Made by a program: the position numbers and the translations under genes. Positions 4,135 to 19,585 of a DNA stretch of 64,000 nt are shown piece by piece. The stretch's first letter is position 1; the number at the start of each line of letters is the position of its first letter. This DNA comes from Natrinema sp. CBA1119. GTDB taxonomy: Archaea > Halobacteriota > Halobacteria > Halobacteriales > Natrialbaceae. The stretch is from positions 434,001 through 498,000 of the forward strand of contig NZ_PDBS01000008.1 in NCBI RefSeq assembly GCF_002572525.1. The letters run 5' to 3'. The notes beneath the pieces are model-generated. The model saw only the letters and a program-made list of their open reading frames with translations, was not told the DNA's origin and did not search any database.

Positions 4135-5445
4135 CTACGTTTCTGTCCCGGATACGTAGACGCCGCGTTCAGCTGTACTCTCACCGGTTTCCACGCGTAC
4201 CGGGAACTCATCGTCCTGCTTCACTGGATACGTCTCAAACTCGAGCGTGAACTGTTTCGTTTCACCGGCAGGAACCGTCACCGCCTGAGTGTCCACGGTC
4301 TCCGGGTTGTTACCGACCACGAGAGCGACCTCACGTGTCACCTCTGACGTGCCCGTATTCTCGAGTGCCGCGGTGACCTCCAAAACCTCACCACCGGTCA
4401 CCGGGCTGTTCGTCCCCTGAATCCTCACGGCAACGCTTCCCCCGTTCCCGCCATCATCGTCTGCGCCGAAGCCTTCGAACTGCCACGGAGTGACCGAGGT
4501 ATACATGTTATTCTCGTCGATCACCCATGTCTCAATCTGGCATGTATGACAGCCGCCGTCGACCTGGATCGCAGCGGTGTCACTAGATCCAGTAAGATCA
4601 GACACGCCAAGGATCACGTCCGACTGGGTCATCCACCAGACGACACGATCCAGTTCGGTGGCAGAACTCGAAACATCAAGTTCGAGCGGAGTCGTTTCGT
4701 CAGCGGCAAGCTCACGGGAGGATGGCCGCGTAGCATCGACGGTTGGCGATTCAAGTCCGTCCTCAGCTACCGTCACCTCCCAACGGGAGGCAGTATTCCC
4801 GCTATCCGCGGTTACAGCCGTATCCACGAGGTGTGTCCCTGTAGCGTCGAACGTATGCGTGAAGAGTTCTCGACCAACGTCGGTGAAATACGTTGCCGGC
4901 CACGGCCCGACTGGCGTCGTGACGTACTCGCCGTCAACATACCAGTGCGTGGAGCCTTGTTGCTGTACCAGTTCGGCATCAACCTCAAAGATGATCGTCG
5001 TCCCCGGTTGAACTGTTAGCTTCTGGCTGCGGTCAGGATACGTATACTGGGCATCACACGGGTCTACACCAGTGACAGTGACCGTTGTCTCGGCCATGCC
5101 GACCCCAGTCTCAAGCCGGACCGGGAACGTGTCATCGGTACGGACCGGATACGTCCGAAACTGCAGAAAATCAACGGTCCGTGTCTCGCCTGCCCCAACT
5201 GGAACTGTCCGCTCACCCACCACCACTGCGTCCTCACCCACGAGGAAGTCCAGTTCAACCTGTTCATCGGTAGATCCGCTATTCTCAAGCTCGGCGGCCA
5301 TCTCGAGGAGATTACCAGCCTCAATCGGAGCATTCGTCTCGGTGATGTCGATAGAGATGTGCCCGGTCGCCCTACCATTGGACGACACAAGTGGAAGTGT
5401 GCTGAGGCCCGTTCCAGCTCCAACTAGGTACTGCCGCCGGTTCAT
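4135..5445 (-). CDS. Tat-exported protein with repeated CARDB-like beta domains
   Basis: Start chosen at 5445 because it places MNRRQYLVGAG, a twin-arginine signal, at the N-terminus; six codons upstream another ATG exists. Two related all-beta domains frame the protein: residues about 30-120 (NAPIEAGNLLEMAAELENSGS...VPVGAGETRTVDF) and the last ~95 residues (NSPVTGGEVLEVTAALENTGT...VPAGETKQFTLEF). These resemble CARDB domains used in haloarchaeal surface proteins. The middle has PKD-like segments with STHWYVDGEYV and a CHTC pair. No anchor is visible at the C-terminus, so it is probably secreted or held by partners. Confidence 0.7.
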   Translation of the reverse strand: MNRRQYLVGAGTGLSTLPLVSSNGRATGHISIDITETNAPIEAGNLLEMAAELENSGSTDEQVELDFLVGEDAVVVGERTVPVGAGETRTVDFLQFRTYPVRTDDTFPVRLETGVGMAETTVTVTGVDPCDAQYTYPDRSQKLTVQPGTTIIFEVDAELVQQQGSTHWYVDGEYVTTPVGPWPATYFTDVGRELFTHTFDATGTHLVDTAVTADSGNTASRWEVTVAEDGLESPTVDATRPSSRELAADETTPLELDVSSSATELDRVVWWMTQSDVILGVSDLTGSSDTAAIQVDGGCHTCQIETWVIDENNMYTSVTPWQFEGFGADDDGGNGGSVAVRIQGTNSPVTGGEVLEVTAALENTGTSEVTREVALVVGNNPETVDTQAVTVPAGETKQFTLEFETYPVKQDDEFPVRVETGESTAERGVYVSGTET

Positions 5446-5463
5446 GTGTGTCCCCCATTTCAC

Positions 5464-5698
5464 CTATTGGCAAGAAGTTTACATAGGCATCAGCTCCGAT
5501 AAGTCTTCAAAACCAATACACAGAGCTCTATACCAAGCAGTTGTCGTCCGCTGATCGGTGCGTGAGCGGTACAAGAATATCCATCATAGCGACCATACAC
5601 AGAAATCATTCCCGTCTCGAACTTTCTATCACTGCAGACACTCGTTAATACCTCAAAAAATTTTGCGGCTATCCTTGCTACACATTCGCACAGGGAGA
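5464..5698. other. Gene-free stretch
   Basis: Short, AT-richer spacer between divergent genes. No gene, repeat or clear hairpin was recognised; it should hold the promoters of both neighbours. Confidence 0.4.
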
Positions 5699-6153
5699 AT
5701 GAACGGAATCATCCAGTTAGTCGGATGGTTACTGGTAGCGCTTATCTTCATCAGGAGCTTTCGTCTCTCCCGGTACCTGGCCCGATCCGACTCCGCCATC
5801 CTGTACCCCGGATTGATCGCGTCCACTATCACGGCCATCTTCGTCATCATCGTCGACGTCATCATCCTCATCACCGGCCTGCTGACCATCATCGCCCCCG
5901 TATTGCTGGTGGTACAGCGGCTGACCGGGTACGACACCTCTATCGATCTGTCCATGCCAACGTTCCGCGACCGCACCACCAGCGACGACACCGGCAGTGA
6001 CCACACCGCTGACCCGGACCGGCGGCCCGCCCTCAATATCGTCGGACGCCTCTGGGCCACATCGCATAACACGTGTACCGCCACGACCAGCAGGACCCGA
6101 CACAGATCGATATCGTCGAACTCGAGGACGACGACTACTGGGAAGATGACTAG
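5699..6153 (+). pseudogene. Small two-TM membrane protein, apparently frameshifted
   Basis: The frame starts at ATG 5699 with a hydrophobic N-terminus (MNGIIQLVGWLLVALIF) and a second long hydrophobic block (ASTITAIFVIIVDVIILITG to LLVVQ). Near 6040-6070 coding character moves to another frame, which ends HVYRHDQQDPTQIDIVELED DDYWEDD with TAG at 6151-6153. That tail is acidic and typical of haloarchaeal proteins, while the original frame becomes Ser/Thr/Arg-rich. A one-base indel, natural or from sequencing, is the simplest reading. The stop overlaps the start of the next gene. Confidence 0.5.
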
Positions 6154-6526
6154 TATATCCACAGCCCCGGCGCCCATCACGATCGACCGAGTGATCGAAC
6201 GACTCGAGACCGTAGACGCGGAACAGGAACATATCAAGGCACACTACGCGGAACACGAGGACAAAGACTTCTACGACCCGCTCGTTGATTATATGACGGA
6301 CCGGGTGATCGTCGGGATCGTTGAATGCGAGAACGAGGCGGAACGGACGAAACAGTTGGCCGGGGATACTGAGACGGCGTCCACTGCACCGGGTACGATC
6401 CGCGGTGGGCTGGCAGATGACTCGTATGCGGAAGCCGATGCAGAGGGCCGCGCCCTGCGCAACCTGATCCACACGGCCGAACCCGCGGACGCGGAAGAGG
6501 AGATCATACTCTGGTTCGGTGAATAG
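6146..6526 (+). CDS. Divergent nucleoside-diphosphate-kinase-like protein lacking the N-terminal strand
   Basis: The 126-residue product aligns by eye with the C-terminal three quarters of NDK: HYAEHEDKDFYDPLVDYM corresponds to the HYxEHxxKPFFxxLVxFI region, APGTIRG is kept, and LRNLIHTAEPADAEEEIILWF matches the RNxIHgSDs..AExEIxLWF end. His109 sits at the phosphohistidine position. The KPDG phosphate-binding segment at the N-terminus is absent. ATG overlaps the upstream stop by eight bases (ATGACTAG), indicating translational coupling. Enzyme activity is doubtful; a regulatory or degenerate role is possible. Confidence 0.6.
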   Translation: MTSISTAPAPITIDRVIERLETVDAEQEHIKAHYAEHEDKDFYDPLVDYMTDRVIVGIVECENEAERTKQLAGDTETASTAPGTIRGGLADDSYAEADAEGRALRNLIHTAEPADAEEEIILWFGE

Positions 6527-6675
6527 CGAGCAGCTATCTCATCTTTATCAGTGGTATTGAGCTGTGAAATCGTGGAGTACTGGAGTGCCGCTAGCCGATA
6601 GAATACACTGGTTCGCCCCCAGCACATGCCTGTCCAACGCCAAGCGTTTACCGGGACAGGGCTCTATACGAGTCC

Positions 6676-9600
6676 ATGGGATTCCCCGGTTCAACTCCAG
6701 AAGTCACTCGGGAGGAGGTGCGGGGTGTTTTTACGCAGTTCGATCAACCATCGACACCGATCACTGCCGATGACGTCGCCGACACCCTCGACTGTCCGCG
6801 GCAAACTGCACAGAATAGTTTAGAGGATCTCGCCGATAGCGGTGAACTTCAGACCAGACAGATCGACGATGGCACACGGGTCTGGTGGCGGCCCGAATCA
6901 AGGAACCTTCCTGCAGAGCCTGATAGAGAGGAGTTTGCTTCCTTTGTGAGTGCTGTCAAGGATTACGCGATTTTCATGCTTGATCCCGATGGTACCGTTG
7001 CCAGCTGGAACGAGGGCGCTGCACGGATCAAGGGGTATCAAGAGGACGAGATGGTTGGCGAACACTTCTCCACCTTCTATACGGATGCCGCTACCGCTGA
7101 CGGAGTACCTGAACAGAACCTCGAGGCAGCGGCGGAAGCAGGCCGTACCGAGGATGAAGGCTGGCGCGTCCGTAAGGACGGCACCCGGTTCTGGGCACAC
7201 GTCACCATCACTGCGATCCGTGACGACGACGGCACACTACGCGGATTCACGAAGGTCACGCGTGACATGACCGAGCGCCGCAAATACGAACAGCGGCTCC
7301 GGCAGGAACGCGATCTCACCGAGCAGATCCTCGAGACCGTCCCGGTCAGTATCTGCGTGGTGACCGGTGACGGTGAGTTCGTCCGCGCAAACCAGCGCAT
7401 GCTCGACCGGATCGGCAGTGATGACGAAGAACTCCCGGATTACAGCGTTGACTCGTGGGAGATCTACGACGCTGACGATGAGCCAATTCCGGTTGAGGAG
7501 TGGCCGTGGACACGGGTCATCGATACCGGCGACCCGGTCTACGATTACCGATGCCAGGTTGAACTCCCGGAGATCGGTCGGCGCTGGCTCTCGCTCAATG
7601 CCGTGCCACTCGACTCCGAGGAACAGGACGAACCGAGAGTTATCGTCTCTGTCGACGATATCACCGAGCAGAAAGAACGCGAACAGCAACTCCGCCGCCA
7701 ATACAACCAAACGGAACAACTGCTGCGGACGGCACCCGTTGCCATCGCCGTGCAGGACGCTGACGGCGAGACAGTGATGGCGAACCAGCGGGCACAGGAT
7801 GCTCTCGGCCTCACCGAACAGGAATTCATCGAGGAACCGGAAGACACCGAGGAATGGGACGTCTACGATGCGGATGGTGAACCGGTTGCCCCAGAGGAAA
7901 CGCCGTCTGCCCGTGTCCTCGCGACTGGAGAACCAGTGTTTGACGAAGAACTCACGATCGACCCGCCGGACAGCGACCCAATGCAGTTCCGGATCAATGC
8001 GGCACCGCTGTTCGGCCCTGATGGGGCGATCGACCGTGTTGTAACGGCCGGAGAAGACATTACTGAACTCAAAGAACGGGAAGAGCAACTCGAACAGCGG
8101 AAGACGGAACTTGAGACCGAGCTCAACGAAATTCTTGGGCGGATCTCAGACGCCTTCTACGCGATTGATGACGAGTGGCAGTTCACTCACCTCAATGAAC
8201 GGGCTGCCGACATCATGCAACAATCCAGGGAGGAGCTGCTTGGGCGAAACGTCTGGGACGTGTTCCCCGAGGCGACAGAGGGCGTGTACTGGGATGAATT
8301 CCAGACGGCAATGGAGACGCAGGAGCCAGTCAGCTTCAACGTGTACGGGGATGAATTGGACGCCTGGTTAGAGTTCAATGTCTATCCATCTGAGTCCGGT
8401 CTGTCGATCTACTTCCGCGATGTGACTGATCAGGTCGAATACGAGCGGGAACTGGCAAAGTATGAAACCATTGTCGAGACGATCAACGACGCGATCTACG
8501 TCCTCGATGACGAGCTGCGGTTCAGGATGGTCAACGAAGCGTATACAGAGCTAACTGGCTATAATCGTGATGAACTCATCGGTGAGCACGCATCACTGGT
8601 CGTTGACGAGGAGACGATCCAGCAGGGACGTGAGTTACGGGAAGGACTTGCAGAGGGCGATGTCACCGACCCGACGCTGGAGGGAACGATTGAGACTGCG
8701 AGCGGTCGCCACGTTCCGGTCGAAGGTTCCTTCACACCACTCTCACAGAATGGAGAGAACCAGCAGCGGATCGGCGTGTTACGCGATATTACGGAACGCA
8801 AGAAGAACCGGCGCAAACTCGAGGAGAGTGAACGCCGATACCGGACGCTTGTCGAGAACTTCCCGAACGGTGCCGTCGCGTTGTTCGACGACGATCTCCG
8901 GTATACGGCTGCTGGCGGCGAACTTATGGATGCAACCGGTGTGGATCCAGAGGAGCGGGTCGGCAATCGTGTCTCCGACCTCTATCCGGCCGACATTGTC
9001 GAGAAAGTCGAACCGTACTTCCACGATGCACTCGACGGTGAAGCGAACTCGTTCGAAATCGAGTATCACAACCGCCACCTGCTCGCCTATACGCTGCCAA
9101 TCCGGGACGCCGATGATGAAATCTATGCGGGGATGCTCGTCGTCCAAGATATCACGGAACTCAAAGAGACACAACGGCAGCTCGAAGAATCCAACGAGCG
9201 CCTCGAACAGTTCGCCTACGCCGCATCACACGACCTGCAGGAGCCGCTGCGGATGGTCACCAGTTACCTGCAACTCCTTGAAAATCGCTACGCTGACGAC
9301 CTTGACGAGAATGCGGAAGAGTTCATCGAGTTTGCCGTCGATGGTGCAGAGCGGATGAGTGAGATGATCGACGGCCTGCTCCAGTACTCACGGGTCGAAA
9401 CACAGGGTGACCCGTTCGAACCGATTAACCTCGATGATGTCCTTGAAGAGACGATCGAGAACCTCCAGATGACGATCGAGGAAAGCAACGCCGAGATCAC
9501 GGTGGATTCCCTGCCGGAGGTCCATGGCGATCATAGCCAGCTTCAGCAAGTCTTCCAGAATCTGGTCAGTAATGCGATCGAGTACAGTGGCGATGAGCCG

Positions 9601-9861
9601 CCGAAGATCCACATCGATGCCGAACAACACGGAGCAGAGTACGTGATCTCAGTTCTCGACGAGGGGATTGGGATCGACCCTGAGGATCAGGACCGAATTT
9701 TCCAAGTGTTCCAGCGGCTTCACAGCCGGGAGGAGCATCCGGGGACCGGGATCGGGCTTGCACTCTGTCAGCGGATCGTCGAACGCCACGGCGGCGAAAT
9801 CTGGGTCGACTCCGAACCCGGTGAGGGAACGACGTTCTCGTTCACCCTCCCTGCAGCGTGA
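6676..9861 (+). CDS. Multi-PAS sensor histidine kinase with N-terminal helix-turn-helix
   Basis: The 1061-residue protein is cytoplasmic; no membrane segment is seen. A winged-helix-like N-terminus (residues ~5-70, DVADTLDCPRQTAQNSLEDL) precedes six PAS units starting near 75, 210, 335, 470, 592 and 718, each ending in ITE/VTDxxE linkers. The HisKA box has AASHDLQEPLRMV near 850 with the phospho-accepting His, and the ATPase domain shows NLVSNAIEYSG (N box), DEGIGIDPEDQ (G1) and GTGIGLALC (G2). Sequence after the last PAS resembles phytochrome-type light or redox kinases of haloarchaea. No response regulator lies beside it, as is common in this group. Confidence 0.9.
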   Translation: MGFPGSTPEVTREEVRGVFTQFDQPSTPITADDVADTLDCPRQTAQNSLEDLADSGELQTRQIDDGTRVWWRPESRNLPAEPDREEFASFVSAVKDYAIFMLDPDGTVASWNEGAARIKGYQEDEMVGEHFSTFYTDAATADGVPEQNLEAAAEAGRTEDEGWRVRKDGTRFWAHVTITAIRDDDGTLRGFTKVTRDMTERRKYEQRLRQERDLTEQILETVPVSICVVTGDGEFVRANQRMLDRIGSDDEELPDYSVDSWEIYDADDEPIPVEEWPWTRVIDTGDPVYDYRCQVELPEIGRRWLSLNAVPLDSEEQDEPRVIVSVDDITEQKEREQQLRRQYNQTEQLLRTAPVAIAVQDADGETVMANQRAQDALGLTEQEFIEEPEDTEEWDVYDADGEPVAPEETPSARVLATGEPVFDEELTIDPPDSDPMQFRINAAPLFGPDGAIDRVVTAGEDITELKEREEQLEQRKTELETELNEILGRISDAFYAIDDEWQFTHLNERAADIMQQSREELLGRNVWDVFPEATEGVYWDEFQTAMETQEPVSFNVYGDELDAWLEFNVYPSESGLSIYFRDVTDQVEYERELAKYETIVETINDAIYVLDDELRFRMVNEAYTELTGYNRDELIGEHASLVVDEETIQQGRELREGLAEGDVTDPTLEGTIETASGRHVPVEGSFTPLSQNGENQQRIGVLRDITERKKNRRKLEESERRYRTLVENFPNGAVALFDDDLRYTAAGGELMDATGVDPEERVGNRVSDLYPADIVEKVEPYFHDALDGEANSFEIEYHNRHLLAYTLPIRDADDEIYAGMLVVQDITELKETQRQLEESNERLEQFAYAASHDLQEPLRMVTSYLQLLENRYADDLDENAEEFIEFAVDGAERMSEMIDGLLQYSRVETQGDPFEPINLDDVLEETIENLQMTIEESNAEITVDSLPEVHGDHSQLQQVFQNLVSNAIEYSGDEPPKIHIDAEQHGAEYVISVLDEGIGIDPEDQDRIFQVFQRLHSREEHPGTGIGLALCQRIVERHGGEIWVDSEPGEGTTFSFTLPAA

Positions 9862-12239: not shown

Positions 12240-12746
12240 CAGTAGATTCGTGTCAGCCACTCAGCCTTCTGTATAGCACTACTCACCCTGATTCTTCTGT
12301 GTAAAGTAGTCTTCCTGTGTCTCACTCCGTGGCGAATCTGATCTACGGGATCCACAGGAAAACGCCTACTCGTCCAGAAACTCCGCGTAGAAGTACTCGT
12401 CCTGCGTCTCGCCCTCTAGCGGCTCCAGCACGTCCGGTTCAAAACGTGTACGTGAATACGTGCGAGAGGAATCTCGAAGGACAAATTCACAGCGTATCTC
12501 AGATTCTTCCAACTTCGCCGGAGAATCCTACGCAAACCGGGACGAGAAGCCTTGAAAGAAATTATTCAAACTGCCCTCTCACTAACCAACAACGCCCTTC
12601 ACAAGAGCGTCGGAGAATGAAAAACAGTCTTCGAATTTATTTCCCACTACTAAAACCAGGGAATAGGTCTTATTCAGGCAATTATTCTGAAACAGTGGGA
12701 GAGTTTTAATCACCTGAATTTATGTGTTTATCCGTCACATACCAGG
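12240..12746. other. Decayed region with short C-terminal gene fragments
   Basis: No intact gene. On the minus strand a tail FEPDVLEPLEGETQDEYF ending AEFLDE stops at 12366-12368, and a related tail SETQEDYFTQKNQGE ends near 12287. They look like two diverged copies of the same C-terminus and imply a lost or duplicated gene. From 12480 the sequence is AT-rich with no coding signal. Confidence 0.35.
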
Positions 12747-12965
12747 ATGATGTCCGCGAGTAAACACCAACTAGCAATATCGGACAGTTCCCTGTTACCA
12801 CAGGCTAAACGTGGAAATTTAGCCATCCCCATGTCGGAAATGACGGCAGTAACCTGCCTCCAGGCCCTGTCAAGTCTACCTAGGTATACGCTTCGACCAT
12901 TCATAATGACAATTAGAGCAAAGGGTTCTGTTCAAAGTACGGAGGAAGAATATGCCAGTCAATAA
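12747..12965 (+). CDS. Diverged paralogue of the HTH protein at 18839-19057
   Basis: This 72-residue product has exactly the same length and the same ends (MMSxSxx... and ...VQSTEEEYASQ) as the protein at 18839-19057, but the middle is strongly changed (LQALSSLPRYTLRPFIMTI against LQELLGLSKLTLFAVLESL). It may no longer fold as a DNA-binding helix-turn-helix. Its stop overlaps the ATG of the next gene inside TATGCCAGTCAATAA, as in the other copy. The region is AT-richer than its surroundings. Confidence 0.5.
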   Translation: MMSASKHQLAISDSSLLPQAKRGNLAIPMSEMTAVTCLQALSSLPRYTLRPFIMTIRAKGSVQSTEEEYASQ

Positions 12966-13521
12966 GCCACTAACGACTCCTGCTATCGCGATCGATACAG
13001 CAGAGTCTATTCAGATCGACTGCTATGTCCGGTCCACTGTCCCGGCACCTCTTATCAAGACAATCAATACAATTATTGACCGGTTGCTGTATCTATGTGA
13101 GAACGGAAGTATTGCTGACTGCCATGTCACTTGTTGGCCGCCAGAAACGGTCAATACGAATGTACCAACGCGTGATGAACTCATAGCTCAATTCGAAAGC
13201 TGGGCTGAGCAGCACGAGTGTTCGCTAAAACCAGCATTTCACCGAAAACAAATCACCCCCTCATTGCCTGGACTCAACGACCCCTGTGAGCGCGTTCGAG
13301 TGCCAGTTGTAGCGCTCGCCCTCTACGAGGCCGATACTGATGGAGAAGCCGACTCGAAGACACTCCAAGGTGTCATTCCATACACGGAAGAGACCTCTGA
13401 AGGTGGTAAGCGGACACACACCGTTGAAGAGTTGCTCTCTACAGTTGAACGAGCAGAGGACGGGAATAAAGCGCACGACTGCCAAGATGAACAGTGGTCA
13501 CTCGTGGAAGGAGAGCAATGA
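12952..13521 (+). CDS. Conserved haloarchaeal protein, paralogue of 18256-18852
   Basis: The 189-residue product shares IDCYVRSTVPAP, CWPPE, FESWAEQHECSLKPAFHRKQ, ERVRVPVVALALYE and LQGVIPYTEE with the protein at 18256-18852. Both follow a 72-residue HTH-like gene with an overlapping start. The VRVPVVALALY stretch suggests a beta-rich core. No catalytic motif is visible and the function is unknown. Confidence 0.65.
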   Translation: MPVNKPLTTPAIAIDTAESIQIDCYVRSTVPAPLIKTINTIIDRLLYLCENGSIADCHVTCWPPETVNTNVPTRDELIAQFESWAEQHECSLKPAFHRKQITPSLPGLNDPCERVRVPVVALALYEADTDGEADSKTLQGVIPYTEETSEGGKRTHTVEELLSTVERAEDGNKAHDCQDEQWSLVEGEQ

Positions 13522-13633
13522 TGGGGTTGCGTGGCTTGCCATCATACAAATCACTGTGCGTATCCGCTCTAGCGATAAACACCACCGATGACAAAATCCT
13601 CCACATCAATGGCGCTATCTCCCCCTCGAACAT

Positions 13634-14026
13634 ATGACAGATGATGATTGTGATCGGACGTCCATATCAGAGGTATCCATCAAGTCAACCGTCCATACTA
13701 AATACCTGTCAGAGACGGTGATTCTTGAAGCAATCGCCCACCATCAACGACGTGAAATCCTGCGGTTTCTCATGGACAGTTGCGACGCTACAACGACCAT
13801 TGATGACCTTGTAGAACACCTTAGAAGTCGAGAAACCGAGCAGATAGGGAATCACCCGGGGTGTTCCTCGGCCGAGATCAAAATCTCTCTCCATCATATT
13901 CATTTGCCAAAGTTGGAAGAGGTGGGTCTTATTGAGTATGACCAGCGGTCCGAGGAACTGCGGTACCGGCGTCATGCTGTCCTTGAGGATATCCTTACCA
14001 GTCTCCCAATTGAAGAAAACAGATAG
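13634..14026 (+). CDS. DUF7344-type winged-helix protein
   Basis: A 130-residue product with ILEAIAHHQRREILRFLMDS, a central acidic linker, and ISLHHIHLPKLEEVGLIEYD followed by QRSEELRYRR. This is the haloarchaeal DUF7344 pattern, in which the HHxHLPxLxexGliEYD helix and wing form the conserved end. The same family occurs at 56636-56995. These proteins often sit near HalOD1 genes and are presumed regulators. It is followed by 160 bases without a gene and then an IS5 element. Confidence 0.75.
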   Translation: MTDDDCDRTSISEVSIKSTVHTKYLSETVILEAIAHHQRREILRFLMDSCDATTTIDDLVEHLRSRETEQIGNHPGCSSAEIKISLHHIHLPKLEEVGLIEYDQRSEELRYRRHAVLEDILTSLPIEENR

Positions 14027-14191
14027 GTATTGGTCATTTTCCACCTGCAACTCATTAGCACTCGAGTTCATATCAGTAGTTGGTAATACAGTTTCTTTAT
14101 TCAGGGTATGGTGTGAAAATCGCGGTAAGTACAGGAGAGACAGTTACCGAAGCGGCACCTAATCTGTCCAGTTACTGTTAAAAGTGCCGTG

Positions 14192-15202
14192 CTGAATACA
14201 GAGGGTGGGCCTTGTTTAGATGCTCTAACTTTAGCAGTGTAGAGTCGATCGAACTCGTATCGCTGTGCTAGTATCTCGGAGGAAATACCAAATCTACTAG
14301 GAAGGGAAGCGGGACGAGCTCGTTGTGCACACGAAGACCTCCCGCTTCACAGAGATGGTTGTGTCGCTCGCTCAAAAAGCCGTCGTTGGTCCGCCAGCTC
14401 CGGCGTACCGACCGGGAGAGGAAGGCTACGCTGACTGGGTGATTCTCGCCGTTCAGGGATTGAAAGAGTATCTCGGCCATCCGTACCGGAAGCTGATGGA
14501 TGTCCTCCGCGAGATGCCAAGAGTGACGAAATCACTCAGTTTGACGCCTGAAACGGTGCCATACTTCTCGACGGTGTGTACGCGAAAGCAGGCGATTCCG
14601 ATGAAGCGGTGGCGAGCGATCCTCGATCAGTCCGTCGAACTGTATGATCTCGGTGATGTGCAGGCGATCGACGCAACCGGTGTCGATCACGTCCAGGCCA
14701 GCCAGCACTACGCAAAACGGACGGACTACACGTTCGAGGCGGTGAAGACGACGCTGCTCATCGATTGTGAAACCAGTGCGATTCTCGATATACACTGTTC
14801 GATAAAACAACCGCACGATACGCAAGTTGGCTGGCAGGTGTTAGTGCGGAATCTCGACGATTTGGCGGCTGTCGCTGCCGATAAGGGCTACGACTGGGAG
14901 GAACTTCGTACGAGGTTGCGTGCAGAAAGTATCACGCCGCTGATTCCGCAGCGAGATCCTGGGATGCGGGGGTGGACGAGAAACTTGCTCATCAAGGATC
15001 GGGCGTATCACCAGGGCTCGAACGCTGAATCAGCGTTTTTCGGGCTCCGCCGCAGATACGGCGATACGCTCTGGTCGAGAACCTGGTTCGGACAGTTCTA
15101 TGAACTTGTCATGAAATCCGCCGTCCGCAACATCGAACGCGCCATCGAGGACTCACACCCGTGAAATCGCGCGTTCAAACAAGGCCCAGAGGGTGTATTC
15201 AT
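14192..15202 (+). mobile_element. IS5-family element, copy A
   Basis: Imperfect terminal repeats: left CTGAATACA..GGGCCTTGTTTAGA (14192-14220) and right, read inversely, GATGAATACA..TGGGCCTTGTTTGAA (15174-15202). It carries one transposase gene. A target duplication was not identified. Confidence 0.75.
14325..15164 (+). CDS. IS5-family transposase (DDE)
   Basis: The 279-residue enzyme has the three acidic positions in VQAIDATGVD, ADKGYDWEEL and SNAESAFFGLRRRYG, typical of haloarchaeal IS5 transposases. It cuts and joins the ends of its element. It is full length. Its last 100 residues are nearly the same as the fragment at 55806-56109, showing that related copies moved within this genome. 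The spacing of these residues follows the haloarchaeal pattern. Confidence 0.9.
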   Translation: MHTKTSRFTEMVVSLAQKAVVGPPAPAYRPGEEGYADWVILAVQGLKEYLGHPYRKLMDVLREMPRVTKSLSLTPETVPYFSTVCTRKQAIPMKRWRAILDQSVELYDLGDVQAIDATGVDHVQASQHYAKRTDYTFEAVKTTLLIDCETSAILDIHCSIKQPHDTQVGWQVLVRNLDDLAAVAADKGYDWEELRTRLRAESITPLIPQRDPGMRGWTRNLLIKDRAYHQGSNAESAFFGLRRRYGDTLWSRTWFGQFYELVMKSAVRNIERAIEDSHP

Positions 15203-15293
15203 CAATGCAGCCGCTCAAGAACGAGCCGTTAAATAGATTGTGCAAATCTAACGCTGGCAATTCTATCAGCTATCGGTGATATCGGCAGAGCCA

Positions 15294-16262
15294 TGCTGAA
15301 TACACCGCGCGGGCCGTGTTTAGACGCCGCTCAGTTGACGCCTCGACCAGGATTATGTGGAGTTGAGCGAGGAAGCGGCGAGTATGCCGTCTCAACTCGC
15401 CCGCTTTACCGACCGATGCGTCGATTTGTCCCAGAACGCTGTCATCAGCAAGCCAGCGCCGGCGATCAAGAAGGGTGACGGCGGCTACGCTGACTGGGTG
15501 ATTGTCTCGATCCATTGTCTCAGAGAGTATCTGAACCAGCCCTACCGCCGATTACTCGATATCTTGTACGAGATCCCCGGAATCGCAGCTAATCTCGGAC
15601 ATTCTGTGGATCAGCTACCGGATTTCACCACCGTCTGTACGCGGAAACAAGATCTCAAAATGCGGATCTGGCGGGTGTTACTGCGGCTGTCTGTCTCACT
15701 GCACGACCTCGGCGACGTTCAGGCGATCGACGCGACCGGCTTCAAACGCCATCAAGCCAGCCGCCACTATGTCCTCCGCGTCGGCTACAACTTTGACGAT
15801 ATTAAGACGACAGCGCTCGTAGATTGCGATACCAGCGTCATCCTCGATATCCATTGCTCGATGAAACTGCCGCACGATACACAAGTTGGACGACAGGTAC
15901 TGACGAGAAACCTGGCACAGCTAAACACGATCACTGCTGACAAAAGTTACGACTGGGACGCGCTGCGGCACGAACTCAGGGATGCTGGCATCCGTCCGGT
16001 GATTAAACATCGAGAGTTCTACGCACTTGACAAAGCGCACAACGCTCGCCACAACGAGAACGTCTATCACCGCCGCTCGATCGTCGAAGCGATCTTCTTC
16101 GCGCTGAAGCATCGGTTCGGCGAAACGTTGCGGGCCAGATCGTGGTTTGGTCAGTTCAGAAAGCTCGTCCTAAAGGCTGCCGTCAGAAACATCGAGCAAG
16201 CCGTGAAGCTCTGATACCACTGATCTCACACGTCTAAACAAGCCCCACCGCGCGGATTCAGC
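15294..16262 (+). mobile_element. IS5-family element, copy B
   Basis: Ends are TGCTGAATACACCGCGCGGG...GTGTTTAGACG (15294-15324) and, inversely, TGCTGAATCCGCGCGGTGGGG...TTGTTTAGACG (16231-16262). It sits only 92 bases after copy A and is related but not a recent duplicate. Confidence 0.75.
15384..16214 (+). CDS. IS5-family transposase (DDE)
   Basis: Start at 15384 (MPSQLARFTDRCVDLSQ) matches the N-terminus of relatives; an upstream ATG at 15357 is also in frame. The acidic triad lies in VQAIDATGFK, ADKSYDWDAL and RSIVEAIFFALKHRFG. The protein is about half identical to copy A by eye and seems intact. Both genes point the same way. Residues HREFYALDKAHNARHNEN before the last acid are shared with copy C at 24560-25387, so B lies nearer to C than to A in this part. 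Confidence 0.9.
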   Translation: MPSQLARFTDRCVDLSQNAVISKPAPAIKKGDGGYADWVIVSIHCLREYLNQPYRRLLDILYEIPGIAANLGHSVDQLPDFTTVCTRKQDLKMRIWRVLLRLSVSLHDLGDVQAIDATGFKRHQASRHYVLRVGYNFDDIKTTALVDCDTSVILDIHCSMKLPHDTQVGRQVLTRNLAQLNTITADKSYDWDALRHELRDAGIRPVIKHREFYALDKAHNARHNENVYHRRSIVEAIFFALKHRFGETLRARSWFGQFRKLVLKAAVRNIEQAVKL

Positions 16263-16374
16263 AGTCACTGACGCCTTCAATTGGGGAGGGAGTATCGGTA
16301 CAGATAATTCAACCAATTGATAAAATATCGATACAAACCAGCAGAAATTCAGTCCAAGGGTGGCGTCCGATGCA

Positions 16375-16694
16375 TTAGTTCTCGACAACCGTTATCGTTC
16401 TGCTATTATTGACTGTTACCTCATATTCACAGTATGTGAACGTGACCGTCGTGAGCTGTGTCCCAGCGGTTTCTGACAGGAAGAACGAATCTAAGGCGTC
16501 AGGATCGATCGCTTCGTAGAGCGGGTCGAGCGCCTCAGTACCCTCTTCCTCAGCCACCGATCCAGAGACAGACGAGCGGTCCGATACCGCGCAATAGCAT
16601 CGATTACTGCAAGACTGGCCGGTTGATCTGCTGAGACGGAAGTCATGTACAGTGGAGAGACTGCGGCTTTGTGACTGTTGTCTGCTTCACTCAT
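16375..16694 (-). pseudogene. HalOD1 output-domain protein with a frameshift
   Basis: The first frame (from 16694) reads SVSADQPASLAVIDAIARYR, the start of a HalOD1 domain. After about 16560 the domain continues in another frame as LDPLYEAIDPDALDSFF, then VTFTYCEYEVTVNNSRTITV and stops at 16375. HalOD1 domains are small haloarchaeal signalling output modules. One base lost near 16555-16600 explains the break. Other HalOD1 genes in the window (54101, 56374) are intact. Confidence 0.65.
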
Positions 16695-16737
16695 GGGTAA
16701 CTACGTTTCCCACCACATGAATCCTGCTGGGGTGACT

Positions 16738-17430
16738 GGCGCTGTTCAGATAAGGTCTGAAAAGCGAGGCGGTCAGAATTCTAGACGTCCATGCCCGAAT
16801 TTAGCCACCCCAACGGCTCTAGTAACGGCGTTCAATTAGATTTTGTGGAGCGAGAAGCGACACCGCGCGAGCTGATGCAATTGAGTATCTAGCTCCATTT
16901 ACCGAGCTTGTCACTTTCAGATACTGTTTCTGTCTTAGAGAGATTCGGTGTCGAACGGGCGAGATTGACGATCCATAATTGGGTACAGAAAGACATCTAC
17001 AGCCGACAACGGGAAGCTAGCCAGATCACGTTGTGCTCGACGAAACTGTGATCAAACCTGATAATCAGCGCTACTGGCTGTATGCTGCTGTCGATCCCGA
17101 AACGAACGAATTTCTCCATGTCAAGCTCTACCCAACGCGTACAACCGCACTTACTGAGATGTTTCTGAGTGAACTGAGAGAGAAACACGATGTCCAAGAT
17201 GCCGTGTTTCTCGTTGATTCAGCTCCGTGGCTTAAAGCTGCACTCTATCACCTTGGGCTCCGATTTCGATATGAGAAACATGGAAACCGGAATGCCGTCG
17301 AACGTCTATTCAAAGAGATAAAAACGACGTACTACTCAGCTCGGAAACTACTTTAGAAACGCCGATCCAGCAACCGCTGAAACATGGTTGCAGAGCTACG
17401 CATACTGCTGGAATCAGCTAATCTGAATAA
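16738..17430 (+). mobile_element. IS6-family remnant, copy 1
   Basis: The left end GGCGCTGTTCAGATAAGG (16738) resembles other IS6 ends in this window (20279, 44175). The transposase inside is broken (next entry). No matching right terminal repeat was found before the PhaB-like gene. Confidence 0.55.
16793..17426 (+). pseudogene. IS6-family transposase, broken
   Basis: It begins MPEFSHPNGSSNGVQLDFVE, stops at TAG after ELMQLSI, and then shows LSDTVSVLERFGVERARLTI, HNWVQKDIYSRQ, a frameshift, VLDETVIKPDNQRYWLYAAV with the first catalytic Asp, FLVDSAPWLKAAL and NRNAVERLFKEIK. After a second frameshift it ends LQSYAYCWNQLI. At least one stop and two frameshifts make it inactive. Confidence 0.75.
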
Positions 17431-17458
17431 TGCCGAAGAGCGGATTAGATGCTGTTAC

Positions 17459-18259
17459 TTACAGATCAAGTCCGCCGTTGATGTCGATAACCTCACCGGT
17501 AATATAGCCCGATTCCTCACTGGCAAGGTAGCGAACAAGCCCTGCAATCTCGCTCACGTCGGCGAACCGCTCAAGCGGGATATCCGCACGGAGATCGTTC
17601 TGAATCTCGTCCGGAATCGCCTCCACCATCTCCGTCAATGTGAAGCCGGGCGCGATACAGTTCGCCGTTGCGCCCACATCCGCCAACTCGAGCGCAAGCG
17701 ACCGGGTGAAGCCGAACAGACCACTTTTCGCCGCCGCATAGTTCGCCTGGCCGACGTTCCCCTGCTTCCCGATCACGCTCGAGATGCTGATAACCCGTCC
17801 ATCGTCGACAGTTTGGAAATCATCGTAGAACGCCTTGGTGCAATTGAACGACCCGTGGAGAGAGACATCGATCACACGGTGCCAGTCCTCATGACTCATA
17901 TTGGCGAGCGTACAATCGGCTGTAATCCCGGCGTTGTTGATGAGGACGTCGATCGACCCAAACGAGTCGGAAACTGCCTCGCGCATCGCGTCGACTTCGT
18001 CACGGTTCGTGACGTCGGCCTGAATCGGATGGGCCGTTCCCTCGGTATCGGCTTCCGTGATCACGTCAGCGATCTCGTGGGCGGCAGCCTCCGACGACCG
18101 ATAGTTCACGATGACAGTCGCACCGTGACGGCCTAGTTCACGGACGATCCCGCGACCAATACCACACGAGCCGCCGGTAACGAGACACGTCCGGCCTGCA
18201 AGTAGTTGGCGAGACGGCTGTTCCAGTTCGGGTGGCCGCTCTTTCTGTTTGACACTCAT
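17459..18259 (-). CDS. phaB: Short-chain dehydrogenase, PhaB/FabG-like acetoacetyl-CoA reductase
   Basis: The 266-residue product has the NADP-binding TGGSCGIGRG, NNAGIT, the catalytic Ser in ISISSVIGKQGN and YAAAK, and ends YITGEVIDINGGLDL, all classic for the SDR family. In haloarchaea close relatives reduce acetoacetyl-CoA to 3-hydroxybutyryl-CoA for polyhydroxyalkanoate synthesis; FabG-type activity is the alternative. It overlaps the upstream 18256-18852 gene by four bases (ATGA), forming a three-gene operon with the HTH gene. No PHA synthase lies in the window, so the symbol is tentative. Confidence 0.75.
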   Translation of the reverse strand: MSVKQKERPPELEQPSRQLLAGRTCLVTGGSCGIGRGIVRELGRHGATVIVNYRSSEAAAHEIADVITEADTEGTAHPIQADVTNRDEVDAMREAVSDSFGSIDVLINNAGITADCTLANMSHEDWHRVIDVSLHGSFNCTKAFYDDFQTVDDGRVISISSVIGKQGNVGQANYAAAKSGLFGFTRSLALELADVGATANCIAPGFTLTEMVEAIPDEIQNDLRADIPLERFADVSEIAGLVRYLASEESGYITGEVIDINGGLDL

Positions 18260-18852
18260 TGTTGTCGCTCCAGCAGGGGCTGCTGATCGTCCTGGGAATC
18301 ATACGTAACAATTTCTCCCGTATCCGTGCCGACTGCAGTAAGCCACTCGTCGACGGTGTATGTCCGCGCGGTGTCTGTCCGTGGCTGGTCCGTATAGGGG
18401 ACAACTCCCTGGAGGGACGCTCTCTCCTGATCTGCCGTAGAGGACTCGTCCTCGTAGAGTGCCAGCGCCACGATCGGAACCCGAACGCGTTCACGCGGTT
18501 CGTCGGCGCTGATGCCGAGTGGTGACGAGGGAACCTCCTGTCGCCGGAATGCTGGCTCGAGCGTCACACCGTGCTGGTCAGCCCAGCGTTCGAACTCGGC
18601 CACGAGATCGTGTCGCGTCGGTTCATGTGTGTCGTCCGTCTCACTGACCGCATGCTGTTCCGGCGGCCATGAGTGGAGTTGATACGCGCTAATATGCCCG
18701 TGGTCACAGAGCTGTTGCAGCCGGTTGTCGATCGTGGTGATCGTTTCGCCAGTCGGTCCCGAAATGGTCGACCGCACGTAACAGTCAACCCGCAGATCGG
18801 TCGCTGTCTCGGTCGGGACGATCGGGGACGCTGAAACGTTATTGGCTGGCAT
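18256..18852 (-). CDS. Conserved haloarchaeal protein in the phaB operon
   Basis: Start set at 18852 (MPANNVSASPIV), which overlaps the stop of the upstream HTH gene inside TATGCCAGCCAATAA, exactly as in the paralogue pair at 12952. The 198-residue product shares VDCYVRSTIS, SWPPE, FERWADQHGVTLEPAFRRQE, ERVRVPIVALALYE and LQGVVPYTDQ with that paralogue. It has no recognised domain. Coupling to a PhaB-like reductase suggests a role in PHA granule or acyl-CoA metabolism; this is inference. Confidence 0.75.
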   Translation of the reverse strand: MPANNVSASPIVPTETATDLRVDCYVRSTISGPTGETITTIDNRLQQLCDHGHISAYQLHSWPPEQHAVSETDDTHEPTRHDLVAEFERWADQHGVTLEPAFRRQEVPSSPLGISADEPRERVRVPIVALALYEDESSTADQERASLQGVVPYTDQPRTDTARTYTVDEWLTAVGTDTGEIVTYDSQDDQQPLLERQQ

Positions 18853-19057
18853 AGCCATCCTCCGTCCGCTGGACGAGATCCTTTGTAAGAAGCGACTCAA
18901 GCACGGCGAACAGTGTGAGCTTGGATAGTCCGAGCAGTTCCTGGAGATCGGTCACTGTCGCATCCTCAGTCACGAGGAGGGACAGATAGACAAGTTTTGC
19001 CTGTGGTGATGTAAGATCTCCTGGAATCGCGGTCAGCTGCTGACTCGTGGACATCAC
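18839..19057 (-). CDS. Small HTH (winged-helix-like) regulator
   Basis: The 72-residue protein reads LTSPQAKLVYLSLLVTED, then VTDLQELLGLSKLTLFAVLE and ends KDLVQRTEDGYASQ. The middle fits a helix-turn-helix and the end a short wing. It is the first gene of the operon with the 198-residue protein and the reductase, so it probably controls that operon. Its copy at 12747 is strongly diverged. Confidence 0.7.
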   Translation of the reverse strand: MMSTSQQLTAIPGDLTSPQAKLVYLSLLVTEDATVTDLQELLGLSKLTLFAVLESLLTKDLVQRTEDGYASQ

Positions 19058-19585
19058 CCGCTACTCCCACAGCCCGACGTATAAAGACAGACTGAGACAC
19101 ATGCACATGCAGGGCAGAAAATCAAGGGAAAGAACAGCCATAGTAAAGTGGTATTACCGGTGAATAATTAGCAGACAAGCAACAGCGGATAGATCACTGG
19201 AAGCAGAACCGTGACTGGAACGGAGATGATGTCCACGAGTGACCGCTGCGTAGCGGCCAGCCGTGTGCGGGACATCCAGATACCGGATCTGGATTAACCG
19301 CATCTCACTCCATATCACTAGAGGACAAAGCTGTATGGCCAACATAGTTGGGTAGATGCCGAGAGCGACTGATTACACGGAGTTGAACAGAAGAGGAAAT
19401 CACCCGGCACTTACTCAGGACTCCTCTATCGGTGGCTGATGTCAGAAGAAGTTGTCAGGTAATATCATGTATCCGTATTCTGTAGGGACTCGACATGATG
19501 AAAATGAGTTGTCACCATCTCTGCTGGACCACCCTTGAAGCGGGTGAGCCGTCCATATACGGCGATGTATTTCAGGGTGGTTTCG
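19058..19585. other. Gene-free stretch
   Basis: About 530 bases between divergent genes. No coding frame with haloarchaeal character, repeat or IS end was recognised. It should contain promoters of both neighbours. Confidence 0.4.

Follow-up and report, generated by a model that had tools for sequence, protein, structure and literature searches.

A winged-helix/HTH_63 gene pair of haloarchaea as a probable local regulator beside enzymes of bioplastic-precursor supply

Why does one haloarchaeal replicon hold two copies of a small two-gene unit, one joined to a reductase gene of the polyhydroxyalkanoate (PHA) type and the other with no enzyme beside it, and what might such a unit do? We analyzed this question in a 64,000-nt stretch of Natrinema sp. 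CBA1119 (contig NZ_PDBS01000008.1, positions 434,001 to 498,000; hereafter the window), in which the original prediction had placed the two pairs at 12747-13521 (copy A) and 18256-19057 (copy B). Both are real two-gene pairs at these positions. Each upstream open reading frame (ORF) has 72 codons, as claimed, and the second genes, also supposed to be equal in length, encode 189 and 198 aa. In both pairs the stop codon of the first gene and the start codon of the second do overlap, by 14 nt (ATG 12952 / TAA 12963-12965 in copy A, ATG 18852 / TAA 18841-18839 in copy B), within the string TATGCCAGYCAATAA, which is present twice in the window (none of 100 shuffles reached two) and twice in the entire 5.06-Mb genome. 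The cassette, which we call the module, is probably a local regulator beside bioplastic-precursor enzymes in salt-loving archaea. In particular, we moderately favor the explanation that it regulates PHA monomer supply locally, as a split regulator with translationally coupled parts, and that copy A keeps the dead frame of its first gene as a translated leader.

The two second-gene proteins are 42% identical (E 1e-52) and match nearly the full profile of the Pfam family HTH_63 (PF20575) with 118.7 and 133.9 bits (cut-off 23.9). The remark that this 190-aa family was otherwise unexplained is half right: a Pfam entry exists, and a literature search found neither its name nor its accession. Comparison of HTH_63 with PDB sequences gave no significant match, and a poor structure model (mean predicted local distance difference test score 51, from a three-sequence alignment) gave the order E-H-E-H-E-E-H with no clear helix-turn-helix (HTH). 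The 72-aa protein encoded upstream in copy B matches TrmB (PF01978; 30.9 bits, cut-off 25.6). What is matched is the DNA-binding part of TrmB/MarR-type regulators alone, a winged HTH (wHTH) in a 72-aa chain, and the overlapping HTH_63 neighbor may fill the effector role. The upstream ORF of copy A was said to have diverged beyond recognition of the helix. It indeed matches no Pfam family and does not reach the PF01978 cut-off, but its homology is detectable with a subfamily profile of related wHTHs (42 bits, E 2e-12), and it aligns in register with the copy B wHTH with zero indels. This ungapped in-frame alignment rules out a frameshift as the source of the odd HTH of copy A.

HTH_63 is present in 218 of the 392 genomes of the order. 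A search with the copy B HTH_63 protein in 125 genomes of the family gave matches in 89, with bimodal scores, and members above 100 bits were taken as the subfamily, which counts at least 65 members in 52 of the 125 genomes (all homologue totals given here are lower bounds). Copy B had been described as one operon with the reductase, and the HTH_63 stop and the reductase start do overlap by 4 nt (ATGA). The homologue and neighborhood analysis proposed as a check, which covered loci as long as 15 kb, showed that the association recurs: 38 of the 65 subfamily members have a PhaB-like reductase and/or a BktB-type thiolase directly downstream on the same strand. A reductase follows in 26, a thiolase with or without its OB-fold subunit in 10 and a reductase with thiolase and OB-fold subunit in 2, leaving 27 with neither (L117 counted once). 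It had also been argued that a family found mostly without phaB would speak against the link. HTH_63 outside the subfamily is mostly without it (5 of 32 loci beside a reductase or thiolase, 6 counting one MaoC), whereas within 1.5 kb of the wHTH-linked subfamily a reductase lies at 28 of 64 loci and a reductase or thiolase at 38 (L070_3748 and L117_7754 being excluded from this control). The 32 loci are the 30 best-scoring ones of an order-wide search plus two from the source genome, and none has the 72-aa wHTH partner, which was seen in the subfamily only. The six of them that stand beside PHA-type genes come from a single genus, which belongs to a different family: four have thiolase-OB genes tail to tail, one has a 57% identical reductase and one MaoC. 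All eight genomes of this genus that were searched have a PhaC match. At L150, in another family (4935-9661), a 57% reductase, a 528-aa protein (an acyl-CoA carboxylase by eye only), a thiolase and an OB subunit are consecutive, and a distantly related HTH_63 gene faces this row tail to tail.

All 52 module genomes match the PhaC model, compared with 53 of the 73 others (Fisher p 8e-6, relatedness ignored), and none of the 20 genomes without a PhaC match carries the subfamily; 103 of the 105 matches reach the curated cut-off, that of module genome G402 being split and below it. Reductases with E below 1e-110 (at least 69% identity) adjoin a module in 26 of 29 cases among the matches listed, the exceptions being G205:C3, G203:C128 and G389:C1. 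In the next class, of about 60% identity, 37 of the first 40 matches stand 374-1063 nt downstream of a phaC match, an arrangement also present in the source genome, and this position argues that the module reductase is a PhaB paralogue. FabG-like proteins are reported to act as PhaB in haloarchaea, as FabG1 of Haloarcula hispanica does, a protein that was expressed together with phaEC in Haloferax volcanii DS70 (PMC7137286), and the copy B reductase would be an extra acetoacetyl-CoA reductase of the PhaB type. In one genome (G306), the module and its reductase, the sole match there at E <= 1e-80 among the matches listed, stand beside maoC-phaR-phaP-phaE-phaC (PhaP assigned by position only). 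The thiolase in relatives' loci adjoins an OB-fold subunit (24.4 bits, under the Pfam cut-off of 27.1), like the two-subunit beta-ketothiolase of haloarchaea (PMC7137286), and in Natrinema sp. SYSU A 869 wHTH, HTH_63, fabG, thiolase and OB genes are consecutive. The thiolase and OB subunit of relatives are 81% and 60% identical to an adjoining pair on Haloferax mediterranei pHME505, near orc1/cdc6, and the gene order there suggests that this pair is the bktB described in PMC8387396 (HFX_6004/6003). The genomic link of the module to PHA monomer supply is well supported.

The same neighbors could mean that HTH_63 is an accessory protein of the reductase and thiolase enzymes and not the partner of a regulator. 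Overlapping pairs often encode subunits of the same complex, with an 8.1-fold enrichment reported for Haloferax volcanii (PMC10666635), the distant HTH_63 genes of another family stand tail to tail with thiolase-OB genes, and the poor model gave an alpha/beta order with no obvious HTH. However, HTH_63 is kept in the 27 members of 65 that lack these enzymes, and Pfam labels the family a helix-turn-helix domain. We consider this explanation unlikely.

The exact 14-nt overlap is found in 64 of the 66 census rows, with the stop 11 nt past the first base of the HTH_63 start; L073 has an additional stop 3 nt earlier than the shared one. The two other rows are a frameshifted copy A relative in Natrinema sp. 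SYSU A 869 (G405) and the second fragment of L117. Of 64 rows, 59 have a motif resembling a Shine-Dalgarno (SD) sequence (GGAG, GAGG or AGGA) in the 18 nt that precede the HTH_63 start. Upstream, TTTA[TA] occurs at -34 to -28 of the wHTH start in 36 of 40 non-redundant promoters, copy A included, compared with a mean of 2.5 and a maximum of 8 in shuffles, for which the range was wider (-36 to -18). A spacing of about 28-34 nt between TATA box and start codon is suggestive of a leaderless mRNA, and so is the position of the box in operon B; in H. volcanii, 72% of protein-coding transcripts are reported to be leaderless (PMC4983044). Ribosomes on a leaderless mRNA may gain access to the second gene by way of the first. 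For overlapping pairs of H. volcanii, a premature stop in the upstream gene is reported to have abolished downstream translation in 9 of 9 cases tested (PMC6728339), and coupling to be nearly gone at distances of about 20 nt (PMC10666635). The module resembles the termination-reinitiation pairs of these two reports in its overlap and in the SD motif within the upstream ORF. It differs in that such pairs usually overlap by 4 or 1 nt and not by 14, and in that its upstream protein seems expendable in several lineages.

Taken as a whole, the original prediction stood as to the two-gene module, the operon with a PHA-type reductase and the recurring link, and failed as to a fresh local duplication. 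In the tree, from which L070_3748 and both L117 rows were excluded, as they were from the decay table, copy B belongs to a supported clade of five rows from which copy A is absent, and a separate relative of copy A occurs in Natrinema sp. SYSU A 869 (86% identity over 139 aa). Tree and relative together rule out a recent local duplication of the pair, and copy A is an old paralogue of copy B. A reductase is present in 6 rows of the Natrinema clade of 19 and absent from 13, and since flanking gene clusters are common to the 17 of 19 rows viewed, it was gained or lost at one place. Copy A may be an operon minus its former reductase, because a relative (43%) of the DUF7344 protein encoded after it follows the reductase in Natrinema salsiterrestre (L008).

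The pair is a small overlapping two-gene unit adjoining insertion sequence elements; the IS5 and IS6 copies expected between the two pairs are there, as two DDE_Tnp_1 (IS5-like) ORFs and a 107-aa DDE_Tnp_IS240 (IS6-like) fragment. It might in consequence be taken for a plasmid toxin-antitoxin or defence module that sits near phaB by chance. Against this, PADLOC, whose models cover defence systems and include no toxin-antitoxin library, has no model for either HTH_63 protein or the reductase, and its weak matches for the wHTH and DUF7344 are taken as general winged-helix similarity. The four proteins searched gave no PHROG match, no relative was found on viral contigs, one flanking-gene set is common to 17 of the 19 Natrinema rows and the module is tied to metabolic enzymes, so that we find the idea scarcely credible.

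What distinguishes copy A is the state of its first gene. Over the 66 rows, this gene is intact in 53 (52 by profile scores of 103-132 bits, plus L073, where the early stop masked the frame), truncated in L117 and decayed in ten: copy A, L093, L112, L118, L081, L076, L120, L122, L123 and L124, which represent six changes on the tree. The decayed wHTHs score -2 to 53 bits and have lost the core KLVYL..LQ.LLGLSKLTL or, in L076 and L081, about half of the ORF. All ten loci encode an HTH_63 protein of 186-202 aa, and their upstream frames run open into the exact 14-nt overlap; even where this ORF has shrunk, in frame to 40 codons in L076 and probably to 36 in L081, a TATA-like box still lies upstream. 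The ratio of nonsynonymous to synonymous divergence (dN/dS; Nei-Gojobori) is near neutrality for the wHTH and constrained for HTH_63 in the decayed pairs: 0.90 and 0.29 for copy A and its G405 relative, 0.85 and 0.33 for L112/L118, 1.31 and 0.47 for L122/L124, and 0.92 and 0.20 for L120/L124. The last two share a lineage, so these four pairs represent three. In 14 pairs without a decayed copy, the values are 0.09-0.39 for the wHTH and 0.24-0.58 for HTH_63, and the mixed pair of copy A and copy B gives 0.41 and 0.32.

These values bear on the idea that the divergent wHTHs still work as DNA-binding proteins and have evolved fast or acquired new targets. A dN/dS near 1 cannot alone separate relaxed from diversifying selection, and the frames are open. 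Yet the core, or about half of the ORF, is gone, and the profile scores fall far outside the intact range, which makes this idea very unlikely.

The open frames themselves could be those of young pseudogenes, G+C-rich or short and open by chance, with HTH_63 started independently from its own SD motif. Simulated neutral drift leaves a lineage stop-free with a probability of 0.33-0.60 when half of the observed differences are applied and of 0.16-0.45 when all are; the frames of L120 and L123 are open far upstream too; an SD-like motif is available in the 59 rows of 64; and L117 has a 5'-truncated wHTH ahead of an open, rearranged HTH_63 frame. On the other side, in all ten decayed loci, which come from six lineages, the frame is open and the overlap has exactly 14 nt, and the product of the stop-free probabilities over the four near-full-length lineages (copy A, L093, L112 and L120) is 0.05, 0.02 or 0.008 with half, three quarters or all of the differences. 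L081 was excluded from this product; it had been simulated as 67 codons, and a likelier start gives 36. None of the six net indel differences read from alignments and from ORF lengths breaks the frame; L118 and the L120 group have two each, and the shrinkages of L076 and L081 are the others. Moreover, the copy A relative with a frameshifted HTH_63 has an early stop in its wHTH frame as well. The stop-codon simulations modestly support retention of the open frame, and we regard the pseudogene explanation as possible but doubtful. Perhaps the decayed first gene stays open only so that ribosomes reach the second. We put forward tentatively, and with less confidence than the regulator itself, that in six lineages a transcription-factor gene has become a protein-free translational leader, whose start, frame, SD-like site and 14-nt overlap would be kept as a ribosome route on a leaderless mRNA. 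A narrow literature search found no title on a decayed gene kept for translational coupling. An enzyme neighbor is absent from 9 of the 10 decayed loci and from 17 of the 53 intact ones (Fisher p 0.0009); a tie between decay and the missing neighbor was set aside, there being too few independent pairs on the tree.

For the favored explanation, a split and coupled regulator, the data show the homology, the operon anatomy, the kept 14-nt overlap, the enzyme neighbors and the contrast of a neutral wHTH with a constrained HTH_63; we infer that there is regulation, with a direction and a ligand, and that the two genes are coupled. The 72-aa winged-helix protein would be the DNA reader and HTH_63 its sensor or co-factor partner, both made from one mRNA starting at or adjacent to the first start codon. 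Ribosomes ending the wHTH ORF would restart at the HTH_63 ATG, 11 nt before the stop, aided by the internal GGAGG, and after HTH_63 they would restart on the reductase via the ATGA overlap. The wHTH would bind the shared promoter and HTH_63 would modulate it, setting the expression of the extra reductase or thiolase to carbon status. Copy B would be the working form, in operon with the extra PhaB-type acetoacetyl-CoA reductase. Copy A, which has no enzyme neighbor, has lost the fold-forming part of its wHTH, but its HTH_63 seems constrained, and its dead frame would remain open as a translated leader. Without an adjacent enzyme gene the wHTH would tend to decay, and HTH_63 would keep a function, perhaps with a wHTH in trans.

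Several observations weigh against this explanation. The copy B reductase reaches neither NCBIfam PhaB cut-off (NF042966, 184.2 of 436 bits; TIGR01829, 251.7 of 302.1 bits), so its identity as PhaB comes from context. The thiolase type is present in 120 of the 125 genomes, PhaC-less ones included; it is therefore not PHA-specific, which weakens it as a PHA marker, and the module-linked thiolases are extra copies of a ubiquitous type. The enzyme link is missing in 27 of 65 members, at least three adjacent reductases are broken or truncated (L070, L071 and L117), and HTH_63 at large also occurs in H. volcanii, which as a control gives no PhaC match. Dyads of 17 bp lie upstream of the TATA box in 15 of 40 promoters, against 3.6 +/- 1.8 in mononucleotide shuffles, but a shared operator sequence was rejected because these dyads have no common letters, and no operator is shown by them. 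PspR, a known regulator, is reported to affect bktB, phaB1 and phaB2 mRNA already in H. mediterranei (PMC10948481). As to the leader, the constraint on the copy A HTH_63 is partly history, since the HTH_63 of its dN/dS partner is frameshifted, and no single lineage proves frame retention, given the stop-free probabilities of 0.33-0.60 at the mildest setting. Conservation at the ends of the copy A ORF does not significantly exceed that of the middle part (7/66 vs 30/153, p 0.12). L117 fits the leader idea imperfectly: the wHTH there lacks its 5' half and has 48 open codons, the sole possible start being a TTG 26 codons before the stop, and a rearrangement has given its HTH_63 an open frame of 313 aa.

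Among described haloarchaeal regulators of PHA genes, our literature search found two, PhaR and PspR of H. mediterranei (PMC9049629, PMC10948481), and none that is dedicated and encoded beside phaB or a thiolase among the results listed. Like the module, both are tied to PHA genes. PhaR is an AbrB-type protein in phaRP and PspR a repressor resembling PEP (phosphoenolpyruvate) synthase, the loss of which is reported to raise bktB and phaB mRNA (PMC10948481); neither is described as a wHTH or HTH_63 protein, and the neighbors of the module are extra monomer-supply genes. In comparison with haloarchaeal PhaB/FabG1 and the two-subunit BktB/PhaA, the module enzymes would be extra copies under a regulator pair of their own. 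PHA monomer supply governs the yield and composition of haloarchaeal bioplastic, and if the extra phaB and thiolase copies do have a regulator of their own nearby, it would be a new handle on PHA. The leader idea, if true, would describe a general way in which dead genes heading haloarchaeal operons look alive; it offers a testable reason for an open, protein-dead ORF and bears on the annotation of overlapping small genes. The features of the window are collected in Table 1.

Table 1. Features of the two gene pairs and of the DNA between them (positions in the window).
Feature	Position	Strand	Remarks
TATA-like TTTATG, copy A	12719..12724	+	28 nt upstream of start codon; TTTA[TA] match
Decayed wHTH ORF, copy A	12747..12965	+	72 codons, open; recognition core lost
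GGAGG (SD-like) for copy A HTH_63	12941..12945	+	within wHTH ORF
HTH_63 gene, copy A	12952..13521	+	189 aa; dN/dS 0.29 vs frameshifted Natrinema relative
DUF7344 gene after copy A	13634..14026	+	43% relative follows reductase in L008
Two IS5-like DDE transposase ORFs between copies	14325-15164, 15357-16214	+	
IS6-like transposase fragment	17033..17356	+	107 aa
PhaB-like short-chain reductase	17459..18259	-	266 aa; third gene of operon B
HTH_63 gene, copy B	18256..18852	-	198 aa; 4-nt overlap with reductase
Intact TrmB/MarR-type wHTH gene, copy B	18839..19057	-	72 aa; GTG start, ATG second codon; 14-nt overlap with HTH_63
GGAGG (SD-like) for copy B HTH_63	18859..18863	-	within wHTH ORF
TATA box TTTATA, operon B	19080..19085	-	28 nt upstream of start codon

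Outside the window, the source genome holds further HTH_63 genes, five in all, of which three are subfamily members, all on contig C8. The third member (L069, at about 69.5-71 kb of C8) has its own intact-looking wHTH and a reductase and forms, on the same replicon as window positions 17459-19057, a second intact-looking wHTH-HTH_63-reductase operon. Synonymous divergence between L069 and copy B drops toward the reductase (0.84 in the wHTH, 0.35 in HTH_63 and 0.23 in the reductase), a gradient suggestive of recombination or gene conversion with the reductase as anchor. Next to the copy B relative on a plasmid of Natrinema sp. SYSU A 869 stands a broken reductase gene (L070, 7752-8455), and the same plasmid also holds a complete wHTH-HTH_63-reductase-thiolase-OB operon. 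In four enzyme-less members (L112, L118, L127 and L129), the module is followed by a protein of about 1200 aa of one cluster, subtilase-like by eye only. Finally, on plasmid 2 of Natronococcus occultus (L138), a module-class reductase without a module lies two genes ahead of a gas vesicle cluster.

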